In this document: positions 1 through 47,442 of the stretch, in pieces
Numbering within the stretch: the stretch's first letter is position 1
Layout of the letters: each line of letters starts with the position of its first letter
Source of the DNA: Trichothermofontia sichuanensis B231
GTDB taxonomy: Bacteria > Cyanobacteriota > Cyanobacteriia > B231
Length of the DNA stretch: 64,000 nt
Direction of reading: 5' to 3'
Assembly: GCF_026240635.1 (NCBI RefSeq)
Contig: NZ_CP110848.1
Location: 4,297,741 to 4,361,740 of the forward strand
The notes under the pieces: model-generated
What the model was told of the DNA's origin: nothing
The model's database searches: none
The model's input: the letters and a program-made list of their open reading frames with translations, nothing else
Program-made: the position numbers and the translations under genes

Positions 1-1
1 T

Positions 2-475
2 CAAACGGTTTTTGCCGAAGTCCGCCCCGACCAAAAAGCCGCTGTTATTGAATCCCTGCAACATTCAACAGTCACAATTGACAATTCCAAGCCGTCTCGA
101 ACGATCGTGGCAATGGTCGGGGATGGCATTAATGATGCACCTGCCTTAGCTCAGGCAGATGTGGGGATTGCGATCGGAACCGGGACGGATGTGGCGATCG
201 CGGCCAGTGATATTACGCTCATTTCCGGGGATTTGTGGGGGATTGTGACCGCGATTCAACTCAGTCGAGCAACGATGGCCAACATTCGCCAAAACTTGTT
301 TTTCGCATTTATTTATAATGTGCTGGCGATTCCGATCGCAGCAGGTATTCTCTATCCCTTATTCGGCTGGTTGCTCAATCCAATTCTGGCGGGTGCTGCA
401 ATGGCATTTAGCTCAGTTTCAGTGGTCATGAATGCGCTGCGGTTACGACGGTTTCAACCCCGGCATTCTCTATGA
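2..475 (+). CDS. Copper-type P1B ATPase, C-terminal part (5' truncated by window edge)
   Basis: This is the C-terminal ~157 residues of a heavy-metal P-type ATPase, which pumps a metal ion across a membrane using ATP. The open frame runs in from base 2. The hinge motif [10 protein letters not shown] is visible just after position 107, followed by the last two membrane helices. These carry the YN motif ([15 protein letters not shown]) and the [15 protein letters not shown] signature, both typical of the Cu(+) subgroup (CopA/CtaA/PacS type). The N-terminal metal-binding domain and the CPC helix lie outside the window, so CtaA and PacS cannot be told apart. The family call is strong and the Cu(+) specificity is an inference from the helix 7/8 motifs. 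Confidence 0.93.
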
Positions 476-485
476 ATTCCTAATT

Positions 486-851
486 TTAGCTACCCCGATA
501 GGTGCTATAGGACCACGGAGAAGTTAAGAGCGGTACATGGTAGTGGGCATTAGCATCGGCAATGCCAAAGCGAATAGGCACCTGATCTAAAAAAGGTGGT
601 GGGCCAGCCAGAAGGGTGGGCGATCGTTGGGCAAAATAATCCCCTACGCTAAAGATCAGTTCATAAATACCTACTTGCAAATTACCATCGTCAAGCAACG
701 GCTGATCGGTACGGCCATCAGCATTGGTCACGCAGGTTTTGAGGTGGGTGCGGATTCCCGTATCAGGCGCGATCGTCCATAACTCCAGGGTCATCCGGGC
801 CGCCGGACATCCATTCGCTGTATCCAGGACATGAGTTGTTAATTTGCCCAT
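486..851 (-). CDS. uraH: 5-hydroxyisourate hydrolase (transthyretin-like)
   Basis: The 121-residue product matches the full length of HIUase, which hydrolyses 5-hydroxyisourate in urate catabolism. It begins with the family signature [12 protein letters not shown] and ends with the diagnostic C-terminal tetrapeptide YRGS, whose residues line the active site of the tetramer. Internal residues [14 protein letters not shown] fit the conserved middle section. The gene is convergent with the preceding ATPase gene, with 10 bases between the stops. No other purine-catabolism gene is in the window, so its pathway partners must lie elsewhere. Confidence 0.93.
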
Positions 852-885
852 CTTGAAGGTGCCGATGATTGGTAAGGTTGGCTTA

Positions 886-991
886 TATGGTCAATCCAAA
901 TAAGAACGATACAATTTTCACTCCCCTCTCCCGTTCTGGGAGAGGGGCTGGGGGTGAGGGAGCTGTTTCAGCCTAAATTGCAATGACTATA
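886..991 (-). repeat. MITE-like element, copy 1 (type 1 right end)
   Basis: A 106-bp copy of a dispersed element, read here from its TATGGTCAATCC end to its TGCAATGACTATA end. The centre is a hairpin (CCTCTCCC...GGGAGAGG) followed by GGGGGTGAGGG. The ends form an imperfect inverted repeat (12 of 16 positions) and abut TA dinucleotides. It lies upstream of uraH. Confidence 0.8.
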
Positions 992-1020
992 AGTTAGTGA
1001 GTATTATTAAACCAAATTGG

Positions 1021-1060
1021 CTCCCGTCGCCCGTTCTGGGAGAGGGGCTGGGGGTGAGGG
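1021..1060 (-). repeat. Fragment of the MITE-like element (core only)
   Basis: The core hairpin and the GGGGCTGGGGGTGAGGG tract are repeated about 30 bp after copy 1, without recognisable element ends. It is probably a truncated copy. The rest of the 852-1362 intergenic space holds short ATTAATG-rich imperfect repeats (about 1080-1120) and CCTATAGTTG repeats (about 1228-1260). I see no gene there. Confidence 0.6.
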
Positions 1061-1362
1061 CAACCAGCCATCCTTTAGTTTAATGATTAATGTAATGATT
1101 GATTAATGTCATGATTAATGAGCGCAGTCTTCTTAGCTAGCCCCTAGGTTAGACCCTAGCCTATGCAAGACCCCAACTAAGCGGAGAACCCACCTAGGCA
1201 TCCTCCCCCGATGCCGCAACTTTAAACCTATAGTTGTAAACCTATAGTTGAGAACGTATAGTTAAACGGACAAACGGATAAACGATTCCCTGGGTTGTAC
1301 TGACCGCAATTTGTCCACATTTTTAATTTGCCCAGATTTTTTGTGTATTACGCTAACTCCCC

Positions 1363-3462
1363 ATGACTGCAACTGCTACCCAAGTTGATAATCCCCTGCT
1401 GATCGGCACTGGCCTACCGCCTTTTGACCAGATCCAACCGGAACACGTGGTTCCCGGTATGACCCAGGCTTTGGCCGAAGCCCACGATCGCCTCACCCAT
1501 CTGGAAGAAAGTTTCACCCCCACTTGGGAGGGGTTAATGGTACCGCTGCAACAGTTGCAGGAGCGGTTGTCCTGGAGTTGGAACATCGTCGGGCATTTGA
1601 TGTCGGTCAAAAACAGCCCGGAACTCCGGCAGGCCCACGAAACCATGCAGCCAGAGGTCATCAAATTCTGGGTCCGGTTGAACCAGAGTCAGGCCCTCTA
1701 TACCGGCTATCAGCAGTTGGCTGAACAGCGCGATCGCCTAACTGAAACCCAGCAACGTATCCTGGATACGACCCTGCGGGATGCGGAACTGTCTGGGGTT
1801 GGGCTAACGGGCGAAACACGGGAACGGTTTAATGCCATTCAGATGGAATTAGCCGATCTGGGGACACGCTTTTCCAACCAGGTGCTCGATGCCACCAAAG
1901 CCTATAGCCTCATCCTCAGCGATCCAGCAGACATTGCCGGACTGCCCCCCAGCCTCCTGGCCCAGGCCGCCCAAGCTGCACGGGATGCCGGTCACCCTGA
2001 CGCCACGGCGGCGAACGGTCCCTGGCGAATCACCCTGGATATGCCCAGCTTTATGCCTTTTATGCAACACAGCCAGCGACGGGATCTGCGGGAAACCCTC
2101 TACCGGGCCATGATCACGCGGGCGGCGACTGGGGAATGGGATAACCAATCGTTGATCGATCGTATCCTTGGCCTGCGTCAGGAAATGGCGCAAATCCTGG
2201 GGTTTAAGAACTACGCCGAACTCAGCCTGTCCCAAAAGATGGCTCCCAATGTTGCCGCTGTGGACGAACTCCTGGAATCCCTGCGGCAAGCCAGTTACGA
2301 TGCAGCCGTCGCTGAACTGGAGGCCCTGCGCCAATTTGCCCGTGAGCAGGGGGCACCGGAGGCGGATGATCTCCAGCACTGGGATATCAGCTTCTGGTCC
2401 GAGCGCCTGCGGGAGGCCAAGTTTGCCTTTAATAGTGAAGAACTGCGCCCCTATTTTCCCCTGGAGCAAGTTCTCAAGGGCCTCTTTGACTTGGCCCACC
2501 ACCTCTTTGGTGTGACGATTACGGCAGCCGATGGTCAGGTCCCGGTCTGGCATCCCGATGTGCGGTACTTCCAAGTTGCTGATGAAACGGGCCAACCGAT
2601 CGCCTATTTCTACCTCGACGCCTACAGCCGACCAGCGGAAAAGCAGGGGGGGGCCTGGATGGGCTATTGCCTCAATCGGAGTCGTTACTGGGAGGGAGGA
2701 GCCGCGAAGCTCCAACTGCCCGTTGCCTACCTGGTGTGTAACCAAACTCCGCCCGTGGATGACAAGCCCAGCCTGATGACCTTCCGCGAAGTGGAAACCC
2801 TCTTCCATGAATTTGGCCACGGCCTCCAGCACATGCTGACCACGGTGGATGAAACCGGTGCCGCAGGCATTCGCAATATCGAATGGGATGCGGTCGAGTT
2901 GCCCAGTCAGTTTATGGAAAATTGGTGCTACCACCGCCCAACTCTCCTGAGCCTGGGTAAGCATTACCAAACCGGTGAACCGCTACCGGAACACTATTAC
3001 CAAAAGCTCCTGGCGGCTCGTACCTTTATGAGTGGTACCGCCACCCTGCGGCAGTTACTCTACGCCTGGGTCGATCTCGAACTCCACGCCCGTTACCAAC
3101 CAGGGGGACCGGAAACGCCTCATCAGGTGCGCGATCGCATTGCCCAACGCACGTCTGTCCTCCCCCCGCTGCCGGAGGATCGGTTCCTCTGTAGCTTTGG
3201 CCATATCTTTGCTGGGGGTTACGCGGCAGGTTACTACAGCTATAAGTGGGCGGAAGTGCTCAGTGCGGATGCCTTTGCCGCCTTTGAAGAAGTGGGCCTA
3301 GAGGATGAACAGGCGATCGCTCAGGTGGGTCGTCGGTTCCGGGATACGGTCCTCGCCCTAGGGGGGAGCAAACCGCCGATGGCCGTGTTCCAAGCCTTCC
3401 GGGGCCGCGAACCTGACACCACTGCCCTTCTACGCCATAGCGGTTTATTGGCAGCCGCCTAG
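1363..3462 (+). CDS. prlC: M3 family metallopeptidase (oligopeptidase A-like)
   Basis: A 699-residue cytoplasmic zinc oligopeptidase of the thimet oligopeptidase/oligopeptidase A family, which degrades short peptides, including cleaved signal and transit peptides. The zinc site HEFGH is present near residue 482 (TLFHEFGHGLQHML). The third ligand region (ELPSQFMENW) follows about 25 residues later, and the family signature AGGYAAGYYSYKWAEV sits near the C-terminus. Length matches OpdA/PrlC (about 680-700). The ATG at 1363 directly precedes a normal N-terminus (NPLL...GLPPF). The gene stands alone between two repeat-bearing spacers. Confidence 0.95.
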   Translation: MTATATQVDNPLLIGTGLPPFDQIQPEHVVPGMTQALAEAHDRLTHLEESFTPTWEGLMVPLQQLQERLSWSWNIVGHLMSVKNSPELRQAHETMQPEVIKFWVRLNQSQALYTGYQQLAEQRDRLTETQQRILDTTLRDAELSGVGLTGETRERFNAIQMELADLGTRFSNQVLDATKAYSLILSDPADIAGLPPSLLAQAAQAARDAGHPDATAANGPWRITLDMPSFMPFMQHSQRRDLRETLYRAMITRAATGEWDNQSLIDRILGLRQEMAQILGFKNYAELSLSQKMAPNVAAVDELLESLRQASYDAAVAELEALRQFAREQGAPEADDLQHWDISFWSERLREAKFAFNSEELRPYFPLEQVLKGLFDLAHHLFGVTITAADGQVPVWHPDVRYFQVADETGQPIAYFYLDAYSRPAEKQGGAWMGYCLNRSRYWEGGAAKLQLPVAYLVCNQTPPVDDKPSLMTFREVETLFHEFGHGLQHMLTTVDETGAAGIRNIEWDAVELPSQFMENWCYHRPTLLSLGKHYQTGEPLPEHYYQKLLAARTFMSGTATLRQLLYAWVDLELHARYQPGGPETPHQVRDRIAQRTSVLPPLPEDRFLCSFGHIFAGGYAAGYYSYKWAEVLSADAFAAFEEVGLEDEQAIAQVGRRFRDTVLALGGSKPPMAVFQAFRGREPDTTALLRHSGLLAAA

Positions 3463-3489
3463 GACAGTCAACAGCGAGTCTCCCCATGT

Positions 3490-3596
3490 TATAGTCATTG
3501 TCATTTAGGCTGAAACAGCCCCCTCACCCCCAGCCTCTCTCCCAGAGCGGGAGAGGGGAGTGAAAAACTGTATCGTTCTTATTTAGATTGACCATA
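3490..3596 (+). repeat. MITE-like element, copy 2 (type 1 right end)
   Basis: A 107-bp copy, TATAGTCATTG...GATTGACCATA, in forward orientation just after the prlC stop. It has the same core hairpin and the TATCGTTCTTATTT right arm as copies 1, 4, 5, 6 and 8. Confidence 0.8.
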
Positions 3597-3601
3597 GTAG
3601 T

Positions 3602-3617
3602 AACGACTTTAGTCGTT
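3602..3617. repeat. 16-bp palindrome AACGACTTTAGTCGTT, copy 1
   Basis: AACGACT-TT-AGTCGTT is a perfect inverted repeat preceded by GTAGT. The same 21-bp stretch recurs at 39135-39155, so this is a short dispersed palindromic repeat. Here it sits immediately after a MITE-like copy and 15 bp before the next gene. Confidence 0.7.
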
Positions 3618-3631
3618 GCTGATCAAGGGCG

Positions 3632-4285
3632 ATGCAACCAACCCTAATCATTTTCATGCGCTACCCCCAAGCCGGAACCACAAAAACCCGATTGATTCCG
3701 GCCCTCGGAGCCGCCGGTGCTGCCCAGTTGTATCGCCATCTGGCAGAACGAACCCTGGCCCAGGGGATCACCCTCCAGCAACAACAGGCGATTAATATTG
3801 AAATCTGGTTTACGGACGGCAGTGTAGCCCAAATGCAAGGGTGGTTAGGTGATTCCCAGATCTATCGATCGCAACCCGCAGGGGACCTGGGTAAACGGAT
3901 GCTCACCGCCTTTGCCACCGTATTGGCTGATGGCAGCAATCGCGCAGTCCTGATTGGAACCGACTGCCCAGACCTGAGCGCCAAGCACCTCAGCGAAGCA
4001 TTTGCCGCTTTGGCCCAACATGATGTCGTATTGGGACCCGCCCAGGATGGGGGATATTATCTGATCGGTCTGCGGCGTCCGATCCCTGAGCTATTTGTCA
4101 ACATCCCCTGGAGTACGGCGATCGTCGCCCAACGCACCTTAACGATTGCCACCCAACTAGGTCTGTCTGTCCATTGCCTGCCCAGTCTCACCGACCTCGA
4201 TCGGCCAGAAGATTTAACCCACTGGGCGTGTAGCCTTACCACACAAGCATTACTTGGGAGATGGGTATCGCGCGGGCCAGATTGA
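3632..4285 (+). CDS. TIGR04282/DUF2064 family glycosyltransferase-like protein
   Basis: A 217-residue protein of the DUF2064 family, often annotated as an arsenosugar biosynthesis glycosyltransferase. It has a nucleotidyl/glycosyl-transferase GT-A-like fold. Visible signatures are IFMRYPQAGTTKTRLIPALG at the N-terminus, the metal/nucleotide region LIGTDCPDLS near residue 112, and LGPAQDGGYYLIGLR near residue 135. Length is normal for the family. The arsenosugar role is known only for some members, and no arsenic genes (arsM, radical SAM) are nearby, so the substrate here is uncertain. The start is an ATG 15 bp after a palindromic repeat. Confidence 0.88.
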   Translation: MQPTLIIFMRYPQAGTTKTRLIPALGAAGAAQLYRHLAERTLAQGITLQQQQAINIEIWFTDGSVAQMQGWLGDSQIYRSQPAGDLGKRMLTAFATVLADGSNRAVLIGTDCPDLSAKHLSEAFAALAQHDVVLGPAQDGGYYLIGLRRPIPELFVNIPWSTAIVAQRTLTIATQLGLSVHCLPSLTDLDRPEDLTHWACSLTTQALLGRWVSRGPD

Positions 4286-4368
4286 TAACAAACGCATTGG
4301 GTTGGATCGTCCTGCGTTTGACCCAAGCTAATCAAGCCAATCAAACCCATGACAGCCTTGACCTGATT

Positions 4369-4471
4369 TATAGTCATTGCCATTTAGGCTGAAACAGCCC
4401 CCTCACCCCCAACCCCTCTCCCACAGGGGGAGAGGGGCTTAGACATCCCTTTCTAATCTGAAATAACTATA
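4369..4471 (+). repeat. MITE-like element, copy 3 (type 2 right end)
   Basis: A 103-bp copy with the shared left half (TATAGTCATTGCCATTTAGGCTGAAACAG) but a different right end, CTTAGACATCCC...CTGAAATAACTATA. The type 2 right end pairs better with the left end (about 15 of 20 positions) than type 1 does. It is the same variant as copy 7 at 22619. Confidence 0.8.
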
Positions 4472-4561
4472 AAATTAAAAAACTAAAAAACCTAAGTTTA
4501 AAAATTACTAAGCTTAAATCAAGATTGACTGAACCCTAGCTTGTCCTAGATTGCCATCGTT

Positions 4562-4798
4562 ATGTCATCACCGACCTTTACCGTGGGCGATCGCGTCCGC
4601 CTCCAGGAAACGCCCCCCTATCTGAAAACCGCCGAACCCCGCCCCATGCTGCGTCCCCCCCAGTTAGTCAAACCGGGTGAGATTGGTGTGATTACCGCCG
4701 CCCATCCCGGTGGACAATGGGCGGTCCGTTTTGCCCGTGGCTCGTTTTTGTTTGATAGCCAGCAGCTAGAGTGGGTGCCACCAGGGGTCGGCGAGTGA
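4562..4798 (+). CDS. sipA: NblS-interacting regulator SipA (DUF3148)
   Basis: A 78-residue SH3-like small protein. In Synechococcus the family member SipA binds the sensor kinase NblS/Hik33 and stimulates its activity in the light/nutrient stress circuit. Diagnostic sequence is FTVGDRVRL near the N-terminus, PPQLVKPGEIGVI in the middle and WAVRFARGSFLF near the end. Length and overall pattern match the cyanobacterial family. It is convergent with the M16 operon, with 15 bases between the stops. NblS itself is not in this window. Confidence 0.9.
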   Translation: MSSPTFTVGDRVRLQETPPYLKTAEPRPMLRPPQLVKPGEIGVITAAHPGGQWAVRFARGSFLFDSQQLEWVPPGVGE

Positions 4799-4813
4799 TT
4801 GGGAGTGATGGGT

Positions 4814-6142
4814 CTAGCGCTTCTCATCAGAAGACGCAACGCCAGCAGCCACCGCGGCCTCAGGTCCCACGATCGACAGATAAGGCTCACCAAAGACGCG
4901 GCAAGCAACCCGCTGGATATCTGCGATCGTCACGGCTTGCACGACTTCCTGGAATTGGCGATCGAAGGCCACCCCTAGCCCCAGGATTTCGTACCAGCCG
5001 TAGATCTGGGCGAGTTGGGCATTACTTTGTTTGCCCAGCGCATATTGACCCAGCATTTTGTTTTTGACGACTTGCAACTCGTCGGCGGTGAGCGGAACAG
5101 TGCGCAGGCGTTCGAGTTCTCGGCGTAACCCTGCAATCGCCTGCTCCGTATTGCTAGGAGCGGTGCCCATGTAGGCAACGAAGTGAGACGGATCGAGGCG
5201 AGTTGGGTAAAGGCTGGAAACGGAATAGGCCAACCCCCGTTTTTCCCGCAATTCGACAAAAAGGCGACTGGACAGACCATTGCCCAAGTAGGTGTTGATC
5301 AGTTTGAGAGGAATGTAATCGGGGTCATGGACGGCTGGGGCAAGGTGGCCCACCAGAATGGCCGCCTGTTGAGTGTCTTGAACGGTCGTGACGGTGCAGG
5401 GCTGGACCACAGGGGTAGGCAGATCGAGGGTAGGCAGCGGGGTATCGGGCGGTGACCAGTCGCCAAAGACCCTTTCAACCAGGGCGATCGCCGCATCCGG
5501 TTTGATCTGGCCCCACAGACTCACAACCAGGTTGTCCGGACGGAAATAGGTTTGATGAAAGGCAAGCAGATGGTCACGGGTCAATTGTGCCATCGTTGCC
5601 TCGGTACCCATGCCTTCAAAGGCGTAGGGATGGGTACCATAGAGGGCGTGGCGCAGTTGTTCAAAGGCAACGGCAAACGGCTGCTCCCGCAGCGATCGCA
5701 GACTACGCAGGGCTAAACGACGTTCTAATTCCACCTCAGCCTCTGGGAAAGACGGGGTGCGCAACAGTTCCCCCGCCAGGTGCAGGATATCGGCAAAATC
5801 AGCGGTGACCGTTTTAATGCGGAGGGTGAAAAAATCAGCATCATTGTCGGCCCCCAGGCTGGCACCCACCGACTCCACCTGCTCCGCAATTTCCAGCGAG
5901 GTTCGCTCCTGAGTTCCCTTGGTGAGAACGGCGGCCAAAAGGTACGACAAGCCCGCCTGCTCAATGGGTTCATAGCGGTTCCCCGCCTTGAGGAAACACC
6001 GCGCCGCAATGATATCAACGGCGGGGTTTTCACCCACAATCACCTCCATGCCATTAGCCAGGGTAACCTGCTGGAGCGGCAATGCGACAGCAGACGGGAG
6101 AGGGGGAGCGGATGGGAGAGAAAACTCGGATCGTACAGTCAT
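4814..6142 (-). CDS. M16 family peptidase subunit lacking the zinc motif
   Basis: A 442-residue insulinase/processing-peptidase-like protein, the second gene of a two-gene operon. Where catalytic members have HxxEH, this one reads GLSYLLAAVLTKGT, so the zinc site is absent. It keeps the C-terminal substrate-binding R/Y element (RLFVELREKRGLAYSVSS). This is the pattern of the non-catalytic partner of a heterodimeric M16B protease, comparable to alpha-MPP-type subunits. Its ATG overlaps the upstream gene's stop (ATGA, 4 bp), indicating translational coupling and probable assembly with that product. The substrate is unknown. Confidence 0.93.
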   Translation of the reverse strand: MTVRSEFSLPSAPPLPSAVALPLQQVTLANGMEVIVGENPAVDIIAARCFLKAGNRYEPIEQAGLSYLLAAVLTKGTQERTSLEIAEQVESVGASLGADNDADFFTLRIKTVTADFADILHLAGELLRTPSFPEAEVELERRLALRSLRSLREQPFAVAFEQLRHALYGTHPYAFEGMGTEATMAQLTRDHLLAFHQTYFRPDNLVVSLWGQIKPDAAIALVERVFGDWSPPDTPLPTLDLPTPVVQPCTVTTVQDTQQAAILVGHLAPAVHDPDYIPLKLINTYLGNGLSSRLFVELREKRGLAYSVSSLYPTRLDPSHFVAYMGTAPSNTEQAIAGLRRELERLRTVPLTADELQVVKNKMLGQYALGKQSNAQLAQIYGWYEILGLGVAFDRQFQEVVQAVTIADIQRVACRVFGEPYLSIVGPEAAVAAGVASSDEKR

Positions 6143-7449
6143 GCAGGTTTCAGAACAGTGACGGCATAGCGATCGCCCGTGAGGTAGCGTTGGGCCAAGA
6201 CTTGGAGATCCTCACGCTCAAAGGCGCGAATATAGCTAGGGTAGGCGATCGCCTGTTCCGGCTGAGCGATCGTGCTGTAGTAGCCGTAGAGGTTAGCCAG
6301 TTGGCTGGGAGTTTCTAGGGAAAAGATATGCTGGTTACACAGGAGCCGTTGCGCCCGCTGCAGTTCTTCGAGCGTAGGGGGATAGGTGGCCAAGTGGGTG
6401 AGATGGCGCTGAATCTCGGCCTCCACGATCGCCAGTGCCTCAGACTCCAGCCAAACCGACAACATAAACAGGCTGGACTCCTTTTGGAGCATTAAATGAC
6501 ACGTAATATCCTGGACCAGTTGGCGTTCTTCCCGTAAATCCCGCACCAGTCGCGAACTGCGGCCATCACTCAGCAGGGTAGCCAGCAAATCTAACCCATA
6601 GGCATCGATCAGATTATCGGTTCCCGGCCCCACCCAGGCCATCAACAGGCGGGCCTGTTCCAAGCGGGGAAGTTCCAACACTTGCCGTCGAATCCCAGTC
6701 AGCGGGGGTTCTGGAGTCAGCGTCGGAAGCGGGGGCAAGGGCGGCATCATTTCCGCTTGAGACCGCTGGGCAAATGCGGCCTGGGCAGCACTTCCGGCAG
6801 CACTGGGAAAACTCTGGTTGACAGCCTCTAGGGCGATCGCCTCGGAGACATCCCCGGTCACAACCACGGTCATATTGGCTGGCTGGTAGTAGGTCCGATG
6901 GAAGGTTTGCATATCCTGGGGGGAATAGCGTTGCAACTGGTCCGCTGTTCCCAGCACCGGACGCCGGTAGGGATGATGCTGATAGACCGTTTGCAGCAAT
7001 GCTTGAAACCCTACCCAATCGGGATCATCATCGGCTTGGCGGATTTCCTCCAGCACCACCTCCCGTTCACGCTCGAATTCATCGGCAGGAATGGCCGCAT
7101 TCAACAACACCTCCGCCAAATAGGGCAGAATATAGGTAAAGTCAGGAGCCGCCGTCGTTAGGTAATAGTGGGCAAAATCATGACTGGTGGCTGCATTACT
7201 CACACTGCCACAGCTTTCCACCACATAGTCAAAATAGCCAGGCGGGATTTGGGCAGTCCCCTTAAAAATCATGTGCTCTAGAAAATGCGCCATTCCCGAC
7301 CATTCATCGGGTTCTACGATCGCCCCCGCCTTCACCCAGACATCCACCACCACCACTGGCAATGCTAAGGGTTGGTGAATCACCGTCAAACCACTGTCTA
7401 ACCGGCAGACAGTGGCAGGGAATGGTGGCATTGAAAGGGTGTTGACCAA
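6139..7449 (-). CDS. M16 family zinc peptidase (catalytic subunit)
   Basis: A 436-residue M16B metallopeptidase. The inverted zinc motif HFLEH is at residues 55-59 within GMAHFLEHMIFKGT, and the distal glutamate region (FEREREVVLEEI) follows about 75 residues later, so the site looks complete. It is the first gene of the operon with the zinc-less partner, overlapping it by 4 bp. No clear signal peptide is present, so a cytoplasmic or periplasm-facing location cannot be decided. A candidate 6S RNA gene lies about 145 bp upstream on the same strand. Confidence 0.94.
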   Translation of the reverse strand: MVNTLSMPPFPATVCRLDSGLTVIHQPLALPVVVVDVWVKAGAIVEPDEWSGMAHFLEHMIFKGTAQIPPGYFDYVVESCGSVSNAATSHDFAHYYLTTAAPDFTYILPYLAEVLLNAAIPADEFEREREVVLEEIRQADDDPDWVGFQALLQTVYQHHPYRRPVLGTADQLQRYSPQDMQTFHRTYYQPANMTVVVTGDVSEAIALEAVNQSFPSAAGSAAQAAFAQRSQAEMMPPLPPLPTLTPEPPLTGIRRQVLELPRLEQARLLMAWVGPGTDNLIDAYGLDLLATLLSDGRSSRLVRDLREERQLVQDITCHLMLQKESSLFMLSVWLESEALAIVEAEIQRHLTHLATYPPTLEELQRAQRLLCNQHIFSLETPSQLANLYGYYSTIAQPEQAIAYPSYIRAFEREDLQVLAQRYLTGDRYAVTVLKPA

Positions 7450-7594
7450 CGGCTACGCCCAGGCAAATATCCAGAAATTTGACGATTAAAGACCCTTGCA
7501 TGATTAGGGGAGACACCCGGAGGGGTCAGACTTACTGCCACTGCGCTCCTTTAGAAAAGGGCTGGATGCAGTGGGGATCCCTCACCCAGAAGAT

Positions 7595-7779
7595 GGTCCC
7601 CCGCAACGCCGTCTTACCTCAGTCTTCGACCTGGTTTAACCAGGTGGGCACCAAAAGGCCAATTTAAAGTTTCCGAGTCAAGGCTCGGTTTACTGCCATC
7701 AGCCGCATGGTTCCCTCGTAGACAAGACTGTAGATCGTAAAACAGTATTGGCAGTCACCAACGCCGCAGTAGAACCTTG
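7595..7779 (-). ncRNA. Candidate 6S RNA (ssaA/ssrS-like)
   Basis: On the minus strand this stretch folds by eye into a long interrupted hairpin of about 185 nt, the usual 6S size. Outer ends GGUUC and GGACC pair, and CGGCG pairs with CGUUG. A 5' side hairpin UUGG...CCAA follows, then UUUUAC/GUAAGA, then an open central bubble. Inner helices are AGUCUU/AAGACU and GGCUGAU/AUUGGCC, ending in an apical CCGAG...CUCGG. The 3' arm has its own hairpin ACCUGG-UUAA-CCAGGU, reminiscent of the 3' arm of E. coli 6S. A -10 box TACAAT lies just upstream. Exact ends are estimated. Some other structured RNA, or an M16 operon leader, remains possible. Confidence 0.55.
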
Positions 7780-7785
7780 CCTCCC

Positions 7786-7791
7786 ATTGTA
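7786..7791 (-). promoter_or_regulatory. -10 box TACAAT for the candidate 6S RNA
   Basis: On the minus strand TACAAT ends seven bases before the proposed RNA start at about 7779. No strong -35 hexamer is seen at the usual distance. Confidence 0.45.
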
Positions 7792-7830
7792 ATGATTTTT
7801 GGGCAAACCCTGGTAATCGGTGTGACACTT

Positions 7831-7936
7831 TATGGCCAATCCAAATAAGAACAATACAGTTTTTGACTCCCTCTCCCAGAGCGGGAGAGGGGTTGGGGGT
7901 GAGGGAGCTGTTTCAGCCTAAATTGCAATGACTATA
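7831..7936 (-). repeat. MITE-like element, copy 4 (type 1 right end)
   Basis: A 106-bp copy running from TATGGCCAATCCAAAT to CAATGACTATA, with the standard core hairpin. It sits between the candidate 6S promoter and the 3' end of aroB. Confidence 0.8.
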
Positions 7937-7971
7937 GTTCCCAAAGTTCCCAATGAGATAGCGAGCCGACG

Positions 7972-9141
7972 TTAAAGGCTAGGCAGTACCTGGCGAACTT
8001 GCGCCGTGGTTAGCTGATCGGTCACGGTGGCGGCCCCAATTTGCGTGGGCAAGACAAACCGCACCTTCCCATCCTTAACTTTTTTATCCGTCTGCAAGCT
8101 GGCGAGGATAGCGTCTGGATCCAGGCCCGCTGGGATTTGTGTGGGCAGTCCGGCTTTTTGGATCAGGGCAAGCTGACGATCGGCCTCAGCCGCACTCCAG
8201 AAGCCAGCCGCGACAGCTAACTGACCTGCCGCTACCATCCCGATCGCCACCGCTTCCCCATGATTCACCTGACGATAGCCCGTCAAACTTTCCACCGCAT
8301 GGCCGATCGTATGGCCATAGTTGAGAATCGCCCGGAGACCTCCCTCCTTCTCATCCTGACTGACAACTTCCGCCTTGGCCTGACAGGACCGGATCAGGCA
8401 TTCTTCCAGGGGAGAATGGGTTTCCCCTGGGCCAATCTCAGCGAGAAACCGGTGGTGATCTAAGCGGGGTAATTTCTCCAGCGTTTCAAACAAACCCGTA
8501 TCCCAAATCACACCATACTTAATCACCTCCGCCATCGCTGCCCGAAATTCACGGGCAGGCAGCGTAGCCAAGACCTCCGGATCAATCAGTACCAGGCGAG
8601 GTTGGTGAAAGGCCCCAATCAGATTTTTCCCTTGGGGATGATTCACCCCGGTTTTGCCCCCGATCGCGGCATCCACCATCGCCAGCAAACTGGTGGGCAC
8701 TTGAACCACGTTAATGCCCCGCAGCCAAGTGGCCGCCGCAAAGCCTGCCATGTCCCCAATGACCCCGCCCCCCAAGGCCACGATCGTGGACGAGCGCTCC
8801 AGCCGCGCATCAAGGGCCGCATCATAGATTTTCTGGACCGACTTCAGGGTTTTGTAGCGTTCCCCTGCTGGCAGGAGACAGTGACTGACGGCAAACCCCG
8901 CCTGGGTCAGTGCGGTTAAGAGGCGATCGCCATAGTACCGGAAGATCACTGGGTTAGAGACCACTAACACCTTTTTCCCTAGCTTCAAGGCTGGCTCCTG
9001 GGCGGGAGGCGGGGGGACAGTTGCCGGTCGCGGGGCATCAGGATGACCGGTTAGCCAAGCGCCAAGTGCATCCAGACTACCGGGCGCAATCAGAATGTTG
9101 TAGGACTGGGGGCCAAGGTGAACACGAATAATTGAAGGCAT
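7972..9141 (-). CDS. aroB: 3-dehydroquinate synthase
   Basis: This enzyme cyclises DAHP to 3-dehydroquinate, step two of the shikimate pathway, using NAD and a divalent metal. Signatures are [39 protein letters not shown], and the metal-binding histidine region [11 protein letters not shown]. From ATG 9141 the protein is 389 residues ([14 protein letters not shown]...), matching cyanobacterial homologues. An in-frame ATG at 9189 would add 16 non-conserved residues and is less likely. A proline-rich insertion ([12 protein letters not shown]) follows the first beta strands and looks lineage-specific. Confidence 0.96.
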
Positions 9142-9317
9142 GATCGCGCAATTCCCAAAGTGTTCGCGCCGTGTCTCCACCAGAGCCACACGACGGAGCG
9201 GGTGAACAGAACGGGGTAGGGAGCAGAGGGGGGCTGGACGGTTAGCAACCTACCGCAGGCTGTATTTTACTCCAGTCAATGGTTCAATAGGTTGAAGATG
9301 TTTTTGGGTGACCTGTT

Positions 9318-9419
9318 ATGGAGCTATCCGGTGTGTTGGCCTATGTGCTGTTCCTGAGTGTGGCGATGGGGACGGCCCTCGCACTATTCTTTGGGCTGAA
9401 GGCCGTTAAATTAATCTAG
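9318..9419 (+). CDS. petL: Cytochrome b6f complex subunit PetL (candidate)
   Basis: A 33-residue frame with one transmembrane helix: MELSGVLAYVLF at the start and FFGLKAVKLI at the end. Length, the single N-out helix and the GL(K/R)..K(L/I)I tail fit PetL, a peripheral one-helix subunit that stabilises cytochrome b6f. The gene is isolated between aroB (divergent) and a MITE-like copy, which is normal for petL. No strong ribosome-binding site is visible. At this length the identification rests on pattern only. Confidence 0.72.
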   Translation: MELSGVLAYVLFLSVAMGTALALFFGLKAVKLI

Positions 9420-9434
9420 CTAAAGTGATCGAGT

Positions 9435-9541
9435 TATAGTCATTGCAATTTAAGCTGAAACAGTACCCTCACCCTCAGCCCCTCTCCCAGAGCGGGAGAG
9501 GGGAGTGAAAAGCTGTATCGTTCTTATTTGGATTGACCATA
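9435..9541 (+). repeat. MITE-like element, copy 5 (type 1 right end)
   Basis: A 107-bp copy starting 15 bp after the petL stop: TATAGTCATTGC...GATTGACCATA. The remaining spacer to 9671 shows no gene. Confidence 0.8.
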
Positions 9542-9671
9542 AACTGTAGGTTGATCTCGATTAAACCCTGGTCCTATCCCGGGACGGGTGGGGTTGCGGG
9601 AGCCTCCCTCAACTGACCCAACCTAAACGGTGGTGTTCCCTCCATCCGTAGCCCAATTGTTGGCGGTCCCC

Positions 9672-11855
9672 CTAATACACTTCCAGCCTCAACGCAAAGC
9701 GACTGGCTTGGGGGGCCGAGACTTCGATCAGGTAGTCGCCGGCTTGGGGTAGGCGGGTTTGCCAGGTTTTGCTATTGGCCGCTATCACACCTAGGCGTTG
9801 ACCATTCGGGGCGATCGTTTTCACCGCGATCGTACCTTGCAATACCTGAACCACCAGCAACTGCTGAGCTTGAGCTGCCAGCAAATAGCGTTGCACCTGA
9901 CCAGGGGCCACTTCTCCCGTCACCGTGGTGCTGGTTTCCCCTGGCGCAAAGCGAATCCAACCAGTTTCTGCTGGGGGGAATTGGGCGGTGGCTGGACTCA
10001 GTGCCACTTCCAACGTGTAGGCCCCATACCCACTCACTTCAATCTGGTAGCGATCGTCGCCGGGCAGTTGCCCAGTCCAGCGCTGGGTGCGATAGGCCGC
10101 TGCATCGATCGCTTGGCCATTACTGCGTAAAAGATTCATCACAACTCCTGCCCCCACTAATTGCACGGCTAAGACCTGCCCCTGGAGGGCTTCGAGCACA
10201 TATTGCTGGCTAGAAGCTCGTCCCAGATTGCCCCGCACGAGGGTAGACACCTCCCCTGGGGCAAACCGCAGCGATCGGGCTAGCCCCCCTGGGGTTCCCT
10301 CACTCAGCTCTCCGCCGGTCGCCAGTGACGGGTCATTTGGCAGGGACAGGGGCGGAAGAGGACTGGAACGGGAGCGGTACGTATAGGGAGATGGTGGCCA
10401 AGGAATCGAGCGATTCAGAGAGGCGCTGGGATCGGAACTCAGAGAATCAGAGAGCAGTGAATGCGACTCTCGCGTGGAGACAGTGCGCGAAGGCAGCAGA
10501 CGATCACGGCTCCAGACCAGACCGAGCACCCCGATCAGGCCAAGACCCAGGATCAAGCCCGAACGCAGGTAGGGGTGCAGGCGATTGTATAGCGATCGCC
10601 AGCGACGCCTCTGACGGTGCTTACTAGGTAGAACAGGTTCATACACCAGGGTCACCGAGGCATCGGCATGGGAAGCCCCCGCCATACTGGGGAGCGGCGT
10701 CAGTGGTGTTTCCGTCAACACCGGGGCTGACGGGGCAATAACAGGTGGGACTGGTCGGGGGGCTAACGGATTGCCTGCTGACTGCGGTGCTGCCGCCGCC
10801 GGTGAGGGGAGACTTGATGGGAGGGGAGCAGCGACCATTGGCCCAGTGGTGGGGATAGGGAAGGGAGGGGGCGTGCTCCCCTCCCCTTGCGAACCTGGGG
10901 GGAATGCACTCGCCGGTACCGACCGACTGAGATCAGCTAGGACAGCGCTAGCCGATTGGTAGCGATCGACCGGTTGCCAAGCTAACATTCGCCCTAAGAC
11001 AGCGGCCAAGTCAGGACTGACCTGTTCTCTGGGCCAGTTCCAAGTCAGGGTCGCCTGATCAAACAATTGTTCAGGATCTTGCCCAGTCAAGAGCACCAGA
11101 CACGTCGCTGCCAAGGCATAGAGATCCCCGTGGGGATGAGCCTCGATCGCGTGCACCTGCTCCGGCGGTATAAACCCCATGCGCCCGATCGGCAGTAAGG
11201 TTTGCCGGAGATAGCGAATATCCAGATCATCGGCTGCGCCGTCAGACGCGCTTAAGCGCCGGAGGAGACCTGCGGGAAACGAACCAAAGGTAACCAGCAG
11301 GGGCTGGGTCTGGGTGATATCTGGGAGGTTCTCCAGCTTAGGGATCGCTAAATCTAGATCGGGCACAGGAATCGGCATCGCGGGGACTTTAAGGACTAGG
11401 GCATCTGGGGCGATCGTGCCCTGACTCAAGTGGTGCTGGTGCAGTAGGTCTAAACACGGCAGCAGCGTTGTCAGTAGGAAGCGAACTTCCCTCTCTGAAA
11501 CGGTTTGCTGATGTTGGCGACGACTGAGCAAGAGTTGTCGACAGGAAAAACCCGCGATAAACTCCTGCACGATGAATAAGCCCTGCGCCTCCATAAACGT
11601 TGCCCAAAACCGGGGAATGCAGGGATGTTGGAGTTGATAAAGCCGGCTAACTTCTTGCTGAAAATAGATCTTTATCTCTTCTAATCGTTTAGGGTTCTCT
11701 ATTTTAGGTAACTGAAATTGCCGTAGGACACAGCACTCCCCAAACCGTTCTTGATCCAAGGCTAAATAAGTATATCCCCAACGACCCTGTCCCAGGAGGC
11801 GTTGAATTAAATAGCGTTGTCGCAAGCAGATGCCGGCTGAGAGCGGTGATTCCAT
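9672..11855 (-). CDS. Membrane-anchored Ser/Thr kinase-like protein, predicted pseudokinase, with C-terminal PPC-like domains
   Basis: A 727-residue protein. Residues ~15-310 have a kinase fold: glycine loop GQGRWG (22-27), alpha-C glutamate E68, GFIPPEQ and DLYALAATCLVLLTG. The chemistry residues are altered. The beta-3 lysine is R45, HRDIKPDN reads QGTIAPDA (145-152) and DFG reads TFG (189-191). A Pro/Ser-rich linker and one membrane helix (LILGLGLIGVLGLVW, ~435-450) follow. The C-terminus has two tandem beta-rich segments (about 535-625 and 640-727), each with RFAPGE...V.G and YLLEV/YTLEV-like strands resembling pre-peptidase C-terminal domains. Inference: an ATP-binding or scaffolding receptor rather than an active kinase. 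Confidence 0.88.
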   Translation of the reverse strand: MESPLSAGICLRQRYLIQRLLGQGRWGYTYLALDQERFGECCVLRQFQLPKIENPKRLEEIKIYFQQEVSRLYQLQHPCIPRFWATFMEAQGLFIVQEFIAGFSCRQLLLSRRQHQQTVSEREVRFLLTTLLPCLDLLHQHHLSQGTIAPDALVLKVPAMPIPVPDLDLAIPKLENLPDITQTQPLLVTFGSFPAGLLRRLSASDGAADDLDIRYLRQTLLPIGRMGFIPPEQVHAIEAHPHGDLYALAATCLVLLTGQDPEQLFDQATLTWNWPREQVSPDLAAVLGRMLAWQPVDRYQSASAVLADLSRSVPASAFPPGSQGEGSTPPPFPIPTTGPMVAAPLPSSLPSPAAAAPQSAGNPLAPRPVPPVIAPSAPVLTETPLTPLPSMAGASHADASVTLVYEPVLPSKHRQRRRWRSLYNRLHPYLRSGLILGLGLIGVLGLVWSRDRLLPSRTVSTRESHSLLSDSLSSDPSASLNRSIPWPPSPYTYRSRSSPLPPLSLPNDPSLATGGELSEGTPGGLARSLRFAPGEVSTLVRGNLGRASSQQYVLEALQGQVLAVQLVGAGVVMNLLRSNGQAIDAAAYRTQRWTGQLPGDDRYQIEVSGYGAYTLEVALSPATAQFPPAETGWIRFAPGETSTTVTGEVAPGQVQRYLLAAQAQQLLVVQVLQGTIAVKTIAPNGQRLGVIAANSKTWQTRLPQAGDYLIEVSAPQASRFALRLEVY

Positions 11856-12491
11856 CCGTTTTCGGACTTCCTGAGGATTGAGGCACAGGACAAGAGCCGT
11901 ACCACTCGACTTACGTGTATTGTCAGCGGGGCCTTGACGAATTTCCTAGGAACTCTGGCCCCTAGGGGGTGGCATACGGGAGGACTGTCTCCCCTTGGCG
12001 GTTCTCCAACTCGACCTCGGGCAGACTGGGGTGCTTGACTGTGCTGAGAAGTTAAGCGAAACTAGCATCCAATAGCAGTGACCAATCTAGAAATTGGATC
12101 AATTTATTAAGTTCCTATGAAATTTTCGTGTTTATACTGAGAAGAGTTGAGGCTTGGCTCGACAGCAGGGTCAGAATTGACGGCTGTTTGAGGGGGTACC
12201 TTACTAGGTGCTACTCAAGAGTGGGTCACAAACCAAGCAGGCTCATCTGTACTTTCGTTTTAGTGAAATATACTTACCCAGACGAAGGATTAGGTGCAAT
12301 GGCCGTAGGGGCTGACCCGCTCAAGGGAGTCAGACAACTCTCTGCCTCTGTATTGTTTTAGGTGTAATTAGTCTGGATTAATTGCGATCGCGGCTGATCT
12401 TGATTCAATTCTTTTCTTTTCTTTTCTTTACTCATCTTTTCTTTACTCAACCAACCTATCTCCCAATTGTGCTTGTTGTCTGCCAAGGGCT
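11856..12491. other. 636-bp intergenic region
   Basis: No supported gene is seen. It holds an inverted repeat CCAAT-CTAGAA-ATTGG near 12081-12096 and a pyrimidine run of TTTTC repeats near 12408-12430, just ahead of the DUF2997 gene. A short frame at 12128-12361 has no family features and no ribosome-binding site. Confidence 0.5.
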
Positions 12492-12701
12492 ATGGAAACA
12501 CTGGAATTTGTGATTTATCCGGATGGCCGAGTTGTTGAGAAAGTGACCGGAATTGCGGGGTCCTCCTGTGCTGAAGTGACGGCAGCGATCGAAGCGCAGT
12601 TGGGCCAGGTTCTCAGCCAGGAGACTACTGCTGAGTACTTTGCTGAGGTTTCCCAGTCTGCTGCCTCCACCGTGGCCCAGTCCATGTACGGTCAGTGGTA
12701 A
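12492..12701 (+). CDS. DUF2997 domain protein
   Basis: A 69-residue acidic protein (METLEFVIYPDGRVVEKVTG...). The pattern of a short beta-hairpin (F.IYPDGRV.E.V.G..G..C) followed by a helix that ends in EY is that of DUF2997. Function is unknown. It heads a three-gene group with ycf35 and a 4Fe-4S ferredoxin, all on the same strand, a grouping I recall from many cyanobacteria. This suggests a shared, probably redox-linked, process. A cysteine follows the conserved GxxG turn (GSSC). Confidence 0.85.
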   Translation: METLEFVIYPDGRVVEKVTGIAGSSCAEVTAAIEAQLGQVLSQETTAEYFAEVSQSAASTVAQSMYGQW

Positions 12702-12812
12702 GGGATCGATCAGGGGAATTGGCGGTAATCCAGCCACGGAACAGCGTCGTTGATTACCGATTTAATTGCCCATTCTTGTTAACCCTAGTCAATATCGAGC
12801 GTCTAAACAGCC

Positions 12813-13199
12813 ATGTCACACTTTAGCAACATCAAAACCCAGATCCGCAATTTGGCATCTCTGCAAGCGGCCCTTACCGATTTGGGCATTGACTGGAAAG
12901 CGGGGCCACATCCAGTGCGGGGATACCAGGGCCAAACGGCAACGGCGGAAGTGATGATTCCCCAGGACAATGGCTATGACATTGGGTTCCGCTGGAATGG
13001 TCAGGAGTACGAATTGGTGGCCGATCTCCAATTCTGGAAGCAAGCGTGGTCTGTTGATCGCTTCCTCAGCTTAGTCAAGCAGCGTTATGCCTATCAGACT
13101 GTCCTGGCAACCACGGCTGAACAGGGTTTCCAGGTGAGTGAACAGGAACACAATCAGGACGGCTCAATTCGCCTAGTAGTTCAGCGTTGGCAAGGGTAG
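12813..13199 (+). CDS. ycf35: Ycf35 family protein (DUF1257)
   Basis: A 128-residue protein beginning MSHFSNIKTQIRNLASLQAAL and containing GYDIGFRWNGQEYELVADL and a VDRFL..V.QRYAY segment. These are hallmarks of Ycf35, encoded in some plastid genomes and in nearly all cyanobacteria. The biochemical function is not established. It follows the DUF2997 gene by 111 bp and precedes the ferredoxin gene by 161 bp. The 13241-13284 spacer holds a short tandem repeat. Confidence 0.92.
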   Translation: MSHFSNIKTQIRNLASLQAALTDLGIDWKAGPHPVRGYQGQTATAEVMIPQDNGYDIGFRWNGQEYELVADLQFWKQAWSVDRFLSLVKQRYAYQTVLATTAEQGFQVSEQEHNQDGSIRLVVQRWQG

Positions 13200-13240
13200 T
13201 CGCTGCTCCCTGGTGCAGTCCAGAATCAGTAGAGAATTAA

Positions 13241-13284
13241 TACTGGTAATAATACTGTACTGGTAATAATACTGGTAATACTGG
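13241..13284. repeat. Short tandem repeat TACTGGTAATAA
   Basis: Three imperfect units of TACTG(GTAATAA) in a row, in the spacer ahead of the ferredoxin gene. This resembles the short tandemly repeated sequences common in filamentous cyanobacteria. Confidence 0.65.
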
Positions 13285-13360
13285 CCGTAGTTGGTTGGGT
13301 CTAACGCTGTGCGACCCAACCCTTGCTGTTAATCACACGACGCTACAGGAGTTATTCTGG

Positions 13361-13825
13361 ATGACCGATTTTAGCCCTGACTCTGGTGGTGGGGCCAATC
13401 CAGCCTTGAACTCAGTGCGTACAGGCTTTGAGCCAGAGTTGGGCAGTGCGTATCAAGCGGCTGCTAACCGTACAGGCTTTGAGCCAGAATTGGGGGGTGC
13501 CTTACGCCAGAAGGGGGTCTATGTAGATGAGATCACCTGTATTGGTTGTAAGCATTGTGCCCATGTGGCCCGCAATACGTTCTACATTGAGCCAGAGTAT
13601 GGCCGATCGCGGGTGGTGCGCCAGGATGGGGACCCAGAGGATCTCATCCAGGAGGCGATCGATACCTGCCCAGTGGATTGTATTCATTGGGTGGATTATA
13701 CGGAACTCAAGAGATTAGAAGCCGAGCGGCAGTACCAAGTTGTCCCGATTGCTGGTTTTCCGATTGACCAGGCGGTGGTCCGTTCCCGGATGCGTAAGCT
13801 GCGTAAGGGCAATCGCCCTTCCTAG
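13361..13825 (+). CDS. 4Fe-4S ferredoxin with duplicated N-terminal motif
   Basis: A 154-residue single-cluster ferredoxin. The cluster ligands are in CIGCKHC (about residue 63) and TCPVDCIHW (about residue 103). The long N-terminal extension carries the same peptide twice, RTGFEPELGSA and RTGFEPELGGA, about 25 residues apart. AGGAG at 13347 sets the ATG at 13361; an upstream in-frame start at 13295 lacks a ribosome-binding site. It is the third gene of the DUF2997-ycf35-ferredoxin group, where it could deliver electrons to or with Ycf35 (inference). A strong hairpin follows the stop. Confidence 0.9.
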   Translation: MTDFSPDSGGGANPALNSVRTGFEPELGSAYQAAANRTGFEPELGGALRQKGVYVDEITCIGCKHCAHVARNTFYIEPEYGRSRVVRQDGDPEDLIQEAIDTCPVDCIHWVDYTELKRLEAERQYQVVPIAGFPIDQAVVRSRMRKLRKGNRPS

Positions 13826-13849
13826 CAAGGCATTGAGAAGCGGGTTCTT

Positions 13850-13894
13850 CTGGGTTTAGGGTGGGGGCGCGTAGCGCCCCCACCCTAAACCCAG
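13850..13894. terminator. 21-bp perfect hairpin after ferredoxin gene (dispersed hairpin family, copy 1)
   Basis: CTGGGTTTAGGGTGGGGGCGC, a GTA loop, and the exact reverse complement. It lies 24 bp past the stop, so it could stop transcription or protect the mRNA 3' end, although no clean U-run follows. A near-identical hairpin occurs at 47443-47485, and both are followed by a TTTAATTTGTAG-like segment, so it is also a mobile or dispersed repeat. Confidence 0.6.
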
Positions 13895-13930
13895 CATTTT
13901 AGTTCTTTAATTTGTAGCTTTTTGCACTGT

Positions 13931-14036
13931 TATAGTCATTGCCATTTAGGCTGAAACAACACCCTCACCCCCAGCCCCTCTCCCACTCTGGGAGAGGGCA
14001 GTGAAAAACTGTAGCGTTATTATTTGGATTGACCAT
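13931..14036 (+). repeat. MITE-like element, copy 6 (type 1 right end)
   Basis: A 106-bp copy, TATAGTCATTGCC...GGATTGACCATA, located between the hairpin and the Rpn-like gene. Confidence 0.8.
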
Positions 14037-14100
14037 ACGCCAAAATCTCAGGAGAACCGAGAAACGAAGGATGATTGAACCCTGATCAATCCTGAGTGCT

Positions 14101-15087
14101 ATGCCGCGCCGCAATGATCACGATAGTCCCTGGAAAATCGTCCTGGAAGCCTACTTCCCCGACTGTCTCAGCTTTTTCTTCGCTGATCTTCTTTATCAGG
14201 CGATCGACTGGAATCACCCCTATGAATTCCTTGACAAGGAACTGCAACAGGTGATCCGTGATGCGTCCCTGGGGCGTCGCTTTGCTGACAAGCTAGTCAA
14301 GGTCTGGTTACTGAACCATCAGGAACTGTGGATTTTGGTGCATATTGAAGTGCAAGGTCGCAAGGAGAGCCGCTTTGCTGAGCGCATGTACCAATATCAC
14401 TATCGAATTCGCGATCGCTATAATCGTCCGGTTGTTAGTCTTGCCCTCCTTTGCGATCCGAGTCCGACCTGGCGACCAAGCAGCTATGGGTACGCTACCT
14501 TTGGCTGTCAGGTTACCTTCCAGTTTCCCAGCATCAAACTGCTAGACTATCGACAACAGTGGGAACAACTCGCCGCTAGCCACAACCCCTTTGCTACGAT
14601 CGTGATGGCCCATCTGCAGGCGCAGGCGACGCGCCGGGATCTAAATGAACGTAAGACCTGGAAGCTATGGTTAATTCGACGGTTATACGATCGCGGCTAC
14701 AGCCGCCAAGATGTAATTAACCTCTTCCTATTTATTGACTGGGTTATGAGCCTATCCGCAGAATTAGAACAGGAGTTTTGGCAGGAAGTCAAGCAATACG
14801 AGGAGGAACGCCGGATGCCGTATATCAGTAGCGTTGAACAGATTGGTCGTGAAAAGGGACGACAAGAAGGACGACAAGAAGGACGACAAGAAGTTTTCCG
14901 CACGTTGATGGAATCGCGGTTTGGTCGCCTCGATCGCCCCTTACGGGATCTGTTGCCCCAACTGCTGGCTTTGTCCGATCGCGAGGCCACTGAGTTAATT
15001 TTGCAATGCTCCCAGTCTGAATTAATTCGCTACTTTGATCAGCAGGTTAACTTATCAGATCACGCGTCAGATCACACATCAGACTGA
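14101..15087 (+). CDS. Rpn-like PD-(D/E)XK nuclease family protein with DUF4351-like tail
   Basis: A 328-residue protein of a group abundant in cyanobacteria and often labelled transposase or Rpn family nuclease. The nuclease-like core has conserved D/K residues (ADKLVKVW) followed by the strand LVHIEVQGRKE, which matches the E-x-Q/K part of the PD-(D/E)XK site. The C-terminus contains a repeat of GRQE (REKGRQEGRQEGRQE, encoded by a 12-bp tandem repeat at about 14868-14894). A DUF4351-type helical tail ends it. Rpn proteins promote RecA-independent recombination in E. coli; activity here is an inference. Confidence 0.85.
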   Translation: MPRRNDHDSPWKIVLEAYFPDCLSFFFADLLYQAIDWNHPYEFLDKELQQVIRDASLGRRFADKLVKVWLLNHQELWILVHIEVQGRKESRFAERMYQYHYRIRDRYNRPVVSLALLCDPSPTWRPSSYGYATFGCQVTFQFPSIKLLDYRQQWEQLAASHNPFATIVMAHLQAQATRRDLNERKTWKLWLIRRLYDRGYSRQDVINLFLFIDWVMSLSAELEQEFWQEVKQYEEERRMPYISSVEQIGREKGRQEGRQEGRQEVFRTLMESRFGRLDRPLRDLLPQLLALSDREATELILQCSQSELIRYFDQQVNLSDHASDHTSD

Positions 15088-15199
15088 GCCAGACCGAGCA
15101 AAACCCAACTATCTGTAACCACCTGCGACTATCTGCTAAGATGTCTGGGCCTTGCCCCTGTAAATCCTAAGCGTCAGGGTACCCACTCGCTCAGACTGA

Positions 15200-16435: not shown

Positions 16436-16590
16436 AGCGAATGATGCGTCAGAAAGGTGCGGTTCCTAGCATAGAGAGGCAAGTGACCCTTGGTAAATAC
16501 CTGGTGTTACCTGGTGTGGACCCATGCTTGGTTATCTGAGCTGAGCCTGCGTAAACTAGGAGCAAGGGTACATCACGTACTGACTGAGTG

Positions 16591-16745
16591 AAATCGTGAC
16601 ATCCTCCCGACGCTCACCCTAGCGGGTAGAGCGCGGGCTTCCCAACCTCGCGATTGAGCATTCCTGCCCCCACGCCACTTATCTAGGTCGTAGACCCCCG
16701 ACGGACCGACTTGGCAGGCGGTTTCCGTTCCCCAGCGTCCCTGGG
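16591..16745 (-). mobile_element. IS200/IS605-type right-end / omega-RNA-like remnant, no intact tnpB
   Basis: On the minus strand this stretch reads GGGGCAGGAATGCTC..., then GGTTGGGAAGCCCGCGCT, then CGGGAGGATGTCAC. This is the arrangement seen at the 3' end of many cyanobacterial tnpB elements, where the end of tnpB runs into the omega RNA and the right terminus. An open frame on the same strand (16788-16573) includes WGTETACQVG, resembling the tail of cyanobacterial TnpB proteins. No TnpB catalytic region is present upstream, so only the right end persists. Identification is by recalled pattern and needs a database comparison. Confidence 0.5.
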
Positions 16746-16812
16746 CTACTATATTCTCCCATCCACTTTCCCCAAGCAACATCCCCAAGCAACATACAAC
16801 AGGAACCTGCCA

Positions 16813-17691: not shown

Positions 17692-17709
17692 GGACACTTC
17701 CTTTAAGCT

Positions 17710-22618: not shown

Positions 22619-22721
22619 TATAGTCCTTGCAACTTAGGCTGAAACAGCCCCCTCACCCCCAACCCCTTTTCCACTTTGGGAGAGAGGCTTAGACATCTCT
22701 TTCTAATCTGAAATAACTATA
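22619..22721 (+). repeat. MITE-like element, copy 7 (type 2 right end)
   Basis: A 103-bp copy sharing the CTTAGACATC...CTGAAATAACTATA right end with copy 3. It is in the 22412-22802 spacer, which otherwise shows GTGTATG/GTGTACGTATC-type repeats near 22745-22800 and no gene. Confidence 0.8.
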
Positions 22722-47312: not shown

Positions 47313-47442
47313 ACTTGCCTTCCTCATCAGAACTGATAATTGAAAATTCAAAATTTTAGATGGGCGGGTTGATATGGATTTGGGTAACTAGAGAAAGAGA
47401 TAGGTATAACCCGCCCCTCCAATTAAAATTCACAGGCTCTCC

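Follow-up and report, generated by a model that had tools for sequence, protein, structure and literature searches.

The BoxC/PIT/TM motif is found in hundreds of bacterial genomes. Bacterial MITEs of the Tc1/mariner-IS630 type are short, non-coding elements with terminal inverted repeats that use TA as their target, reach high copy numbers and are located between genes. Nezha is listed as one such cyanobacterial MITE (Zhou 2008, listed in PMC10969869). Formation of an intrastrand triplex was demonstrated in vitro for the E. coli BoxC/PIT/TM motif only, and when mobile elements were looked for around the motif in E. coli, no association was reported (PMC4666352). No earlier work tying BoxC/PIT/TM to MITEs was found in the open-access literature. 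In this study, the motif was found to form the interior of a family of small repeats, called the L/RA/RB elements after their left arm (L) and their two kinds of right arm (RA and RB). These elements are very probably non-autonomous, TA-target MITEs of a Tc1/mariner/IS630-like kind that carry a BoxC/PIT/TM core and were moved in trans. The members and parts of the family identified in the window, which is the whole stretch of 64,000 nucleotides analyzed, were as follows.

3490–3596, plus strand: L/RA element of 107 bp, TA...TA, the reference copy of the preliminary description
3490–3518, plus strand: its left arm L, TATAGTCATTGNNATTTAGGCTGAAACAG, an imperfect inverted repeat of the right arm
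3519–3560, minus strand: its core, by sequence the BoxC/PIT/TM intrastrand-triplex motif, reading CTCTCCC-GCTCT-GGGAGAGAGGCTGGGGGTGAGGG on the minus strand
3570–3596, plus strand: its right arm RA, GTATCGTTCTTATTTGGATTGACCATA, from which the copy at 3490 deviates at one base
886–991, minus strand: L/RA element of 106 bp
4369–4471, plus strand: L/RB element of 103 bp with the right end CATCCCTTTCTAATCTGAAATAACTATA
7831–7936, minus strand: L/RA element of 106 bp
9435–9541, plus strand: L/RA element of 107 bp
13931–14037, plus strand: L/RA element within another dispersed repeat
22619–22721, plus strand: L/RB element of 103 bp with a decayed core (CTTTTCC variant)
51181–51287, minus strand: L/RA element of 107 bp with a decayed stem
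1021–1060, plus strand: stand-alone TM core without arms
about 23900–24004, plus strand: core with RC arm, a member of the second MITE family, RC/RD (its end, GGTAAAGGCTGTA, resembles the ends of the resident IS630)
61696–61842, plus strand: mosaic element in which an L tip (TATAGTCATTGCAATTTAG) is fused to an RC-type core and arm

All eight complete copies that the preliminary description had reported were found at their positions, five on the plus strand and three on the minus strand, and each was located between called genes. The two alternative right ends that it had distinguished are also real, RA (GTATCGTTCTTATTTGGATTGACCATA) being present in six copies and RB (CATCTCTTTCTAATCTGAAATAACTATA) in the copies at 4369 and 22619. 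The sequence that it had called a fragment at 1021 is present, but is a lone core hairpin that possesses neither end of the element. The assignment of a CCTCTCCC/GGGAGAGG hairpin to every copy was slightly too strong, as the CTTTTCC variant at 22619 and the decayed stem at 51181 are exceptions. The member of the second MITE family at about 23900–24004 and the hybrid at 61696–61842, which looks like a mosaic produced by arm exchange, were absent from the earlier list. The 6S RNA gene (RF00013; window 7594–7775, minus strand) directly adjoins the element at 7831. A dispersed palindromic repeat, GGTGGGGGCGCGTAGCGCCCCCACC, which has a terminator-like look, is located at 13850–13894 and 47442–47485 of the window and hosts the element at 13931. 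The same repeat was also found inserted at the same place in the right arms of two 227-bp elements elsewhere in the genome (3315265–3315491 and 3726656–3726882), where the GTGTCG or GTATCG beside the inserted repeat recurs on its other side.

The genome is a single contig, a chromosome of 4.44 Mb, of which 2.46 Mb (55%) was covered by the detailed reading; its DHQ synthase has exclusively cyanobacterial nearest relatives, with identities of 64–70%. Genome-wide, 374 left ends were found at 2 or fewer mismatches and none with the reversed pattern that served as control. Thus, the family inferred from the window does not result from chance and extends through the chromosome, in which there are roughly 400 copies of this non-coding element of about 105 bp. 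In the 2.46 Mb, 198 L ends had an RA or RB partner less than 200 bp away, and the resulting pairs were exactly 107 bp long in 120 cases and exactly 103 bp long in 32. The elements are therefore of two kinds that share the left arm L, with L/RA usually of 107 bp and L/RB usually of 103 bp. Like MITEs, they are short (103–107 bp), non-coding and multicopy (374 left ends). Their ends, which begin with TATAGTCA, TATGGTCA or TATAGTTA, are imperfect inverted repeats: L and RA match at about 20 of 29 positions and RB is comparable, as aligned by eye. The mean distance from copy to consensus was 6.8%, which counts against claiming present-day activity. Among 389 other genomes of the class, matches to the left end were at chance level, with one match each in two genomes.

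On its G strand, the core reads CCCTCTCCC-n5-GGGAGAGGG-spacer-GGGGTGAGGG, and this architecture equals that of TM_ECO (PMC4666352). The pattern CCCTCTCCC-loop-GGGAGAGGG-spacer-GGG(G)TGAGGG was present in all 197 of the 197 paired elements with at most 4 mismatches in 27 positions. After merging, 427 TM loci were identified in the 2.46 Mb, of which 197 were within the L/RA/RB family. None was found in a simulated order-2 genome, which was used as control since reversed blocks, being near mirror-symmetric, were unsuitable. Judged by sequence, the core is thus the known pan-bacterial motif BoxC/PIT/TM, which the preliminary description had overlooked. Elsewhere, the core matched plasmids of proteobacteria and one Prevotella, and weak matches came from E. 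coli. At the TM pair between hrpB and mrcB of E. coli K-12 (164400–164800), no clear terminal repeats or duplication were seen by eye, so that the mobile context of the motif is so far demonstrated for cyanobacteria only.

The TA...TA boundaries of the elements are sharp. In 128 elements, the flanks carried about 0–0.3 bit at nearly every position, with a weak and symmetric bias for T before the element and A after it. Ends that vary freely had been named beforehand as an observation that would speak against a mobile element; the TA-flanked termini proved constant and the flanks near random. Empty sites were sought in intragenomic paralogues, because the genomes available for comparison were no closer than the same class. 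For this purpose, the flanks of elements hosted by other dispersed repeats were fused either directly or through T, TA, TCA or TATA and scored against the remaining sequence of the 2.46 Mb. The single-TA join scored best in 17 of 26 host-repeat cases, many of them ungapped and with identities of 80–95%, and another join was preferred in the other 9. For instance, the copy at 13931 has an uninterrupted paralogue at genome position 1627249, with 95% identity in a 63-bp stretch that spans a single TA. For the copy at 3490, the single TA was also preferred, more weakly (83% with one gap). Empty TA sites, which the preliminary description had called for in close relatives, therefore exist in uninterrupted paralogues of the host repeats (17/26), and this pattern is the footprint expected of cut-and-paste insertion at TA with duplication. 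TA at both ends together with single-TA empty sites constitutes a target-site duplication, as in MITEs, and TA is the target dinucleotide, as in MITEs of the IS630/Tc1-mariner type.

Most elements are located between genes (192 of 193), and, by home-made and approximate gene calls on which all placement statistics rest, 39.6% of them are in convergent gaps and 8.9% in divergent gaps, vs 16.7 and 29.8%, respectively, expected from intergenic TA. This strong excess at convergent gene ends, a hairpin that is stable relative to shuffled sequences (z of −2.3 to −3.9) and a near-palindromic core that would serve both directions are what would be seen if selection kept the elements as bidirectional terminators or as stabilizers of mRNA 3' ends, with mobility being incidental. 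Avoidance of promoters, however, accounts for the placement bias by itself and without any function. Moreover, orientation relative to the neighboring gene showed no strand bias in tandem gaps (51 same and 48 opposite), none of the six elements of window positions 1–20000 received a terminator-like call (a stem followed by a T-rich tail), and the PIT elements of E. coli are cited as having no terminator activity (Hoyne and Maher, 2002, cited in PMC4666352). The terminator role suggested in the preliminary description thus finds no support, and selection for such a function is an unlikely reason for the persistence of the elements. A different origin from hairpins would be spread in the manner of REP/BIME-type palindromes, in which a Y1 (RAYT/IS200-like) transposase acts on the core hairpin and the arms hitch-hike. 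The core is indeed a GC-rich hairpin that sometimes stands alone, such as that at 1021–1060, and the genome contains two Y1 transposase genes. The TA...TA boundaries are, however, about 45 bp outside the hairpin and have single-TA empty sites, and the core is at least 2.7 kb from both Y1 genes, neither of which is flanked by the palindrome. Such an origin is highly improbable.

The preliminary reading of the family as MITEs with a TA target is supported by the conserved ends and the empty sites, and movement in trans by a transposase of the IS630/Tc1-mariner type would fit both. It had also proposed a search for an IS630-type transposase with matching ends. Transposase genes with PF13358 (IS630-type) were identified at seven loci, whose readable ends are TACAGCC- or TATAGCC-like and differ from those of the elements. 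Five of the IS630 copies (genome positions 2971794, 2989883, 3397980, 4283870, and 2925741) are 96–99% identical and about 1033 bp long, one being truncated, with ends TACAGCCTTTCCC.../TACAGCATTTCC... At 3047117 and 915408, related copies have ends of the TATAGCC/TATAAAA/TATAGGA type wherever these can be read. Their target logic at TA and the near identity of the five copies make the resident IS630 copies candidates for mobilizing the L/RA/RB family, and they fit the second MITE family of this genome, RC/RD, whose ends (...GGTAAAGGCTGTA; TACAGCCTTTACC) are similar to theirs. Beyond the TA tip, however, the L/RA/RB ends (TATAGTCATT) share little with those of the resident IS630 (TACAGCC/TACAGCA). 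Furthermore, the IS630 transposase reading is spread across two frames and, in some copies, interrupted by stops; it is either decayed or expressed by frameshifting. Mobilization of the family by these copies is accordingly improbable. Because of the mismatched ends, the family is described as working like an IS630/Tc1-mariner MITE and is not filed as a member of that group. No autonomous copy was found among L and R ends 200–3000 bp apart in 55% of the genome, where such pairs look like chance or interrupted elements, and no partner transposase with the ends of the family (TATAGTCATTGCAATTTAG/TATGGTCAATCCAAAT) was found in the same 55% or at the PF13358 loci with readable ends. An apparent L-ended IS at 3614233, 3695693, and 3730444 was rejected, as it is a separate IS inserted in three L elements. 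This IS, whose ends are like GGGAGAG-CAGGGTGGTT(G/T)CATTT, is positioned exactly at their core and may target the hairpin.

The core is not restricted to the L/RA/RB elements. At least three additional MITE families, of this genome and of other cyanobacteria, also contain it, with target duplications of 8–10 bp. In the genome G005, a duplication of exactly 8 bp was present in 9 of the 12 copies, counted by hand, of a core family of 161 bp (GGCATTAATATACTT.../GGCAACAATATACTT...). A 140-bp family with two cores (GAGAGCATCCCAGTTTTGC.../GAGTGCATCCCACTTTTG...) had duplications of 8–9 bp in G005 and G023, and its counterpart in the present genome had exact duplications of 8 or 9 bp in 12 of 15 copies, vs about 0.5 or less after shuffling. 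The RE family of the present genome had 10-bp duplications in 3 of 14 copies, vs 0.2 after shuffling. In addition, a related TA-ended core family, TATAGTCATTTCAAAC..., was identified in G004, a genome of the same class. Given these different lengths of duplication around one core, the core sits in elements that need different transposases. An A-type motif is combined with a B-type motif in both the E. coli TM pair and the cyanobacterial double-core family; the former faces inward, with its third strands together, and the latter outward.

Arm pairs at canonical distances numbered 144 for L/RA, 39 for L/RB, 29 for RC/RD, and 11 for mixed combinations, such as L/RC, RB/RC, and RA/RE, and both loop orientations, AGAGC and GCTCT, were seen among the cores. 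The mixed pairs are most simply read as products of recombination or template switching at the core; individual cases may instead stem from nested insertion with subsequent deletion. We tentatively suggest that BoxC/PIT/TM may be a transposon-borne module, common to unrelated cyanobacterial MITE families (with TA, 8-bp, 8–9-bp, and 10-bp duplications) and serving as a joint for the arm exchange that creates new MITEs. For the L/RA/RB family itself, the preferred reading is that of some 400 non-autonomous DNA transposons of 103–107 bp, which insert at TA and duplicate it. They would have been moved in trans by a Tc1/mariner/IS630-like transposase, now absent or unrecognized. The elements persist chiefly between genes, at 3' ends. 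The BoxC/PIT/TM interior, whatever benefit it might confer, would be a passenger that multiplies in the genome along with the elements, with an occasional exchange of arms across it that recombination or template switching between cores would explain most simply.

The means by which BoxC/PIT/TM spreads had been unexplained; the elements described here provide a visible vehicle for the motif, complete with target duplications and empty sites. Its mode of spread, and the choice between transposition and recombination as the source of its instability, can thereby be addressed by comparison of sister strains. Cores common to unrelated MITEs also offer a simple route to new MITE families. If the motif is indeed a transposon-borne module, its carriage by MITEs would explain its abundance across cyanobacteria and possibly in other phyla.

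Compared with known systems, the L/RA/RB family resembles MITEs of the Tc1/mariner-IS630 type, including Nezha, in general family traits. Different from those MITEs, no matching autonomous IS was found for it, and it possesses two right arms per left arm and contains a BoxC/PIT/TM interior. The TA-ended core repeats of G004 are similar in their ends (TATAGTCATTT(C/T)AAAC...), their length of about 125–145 bp and their TM core; their arms, however, diverge beyond the tips and their copies are far fewer (13 arms by search). The palindromes of Enterobacter sp. 638, CCCTCTCCC-XX(X)-GGGAGAGGG, share the same palindrome and occur about 100 times, at the 3' ends of genes; in the part of that report consulted they are read as terminators and a mobile context is not reported (PMC2869309). 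Similar to BoxC/PIT/TM (Hoyne and Maher; Holder et al., 2015, PMC4666352), the present core consists of a pyrimidine block, a short loop, GGGAGAGGG, a short spacer and GGGGTGAGGG, and also resembles it in being intergenic, without strand bias and present in many copies in cyanobacteria. Different from the E. coli motif, for which an association with transposons was reported to be lacking (PMC4666352), the present core is located within mobile elements with target duplications.
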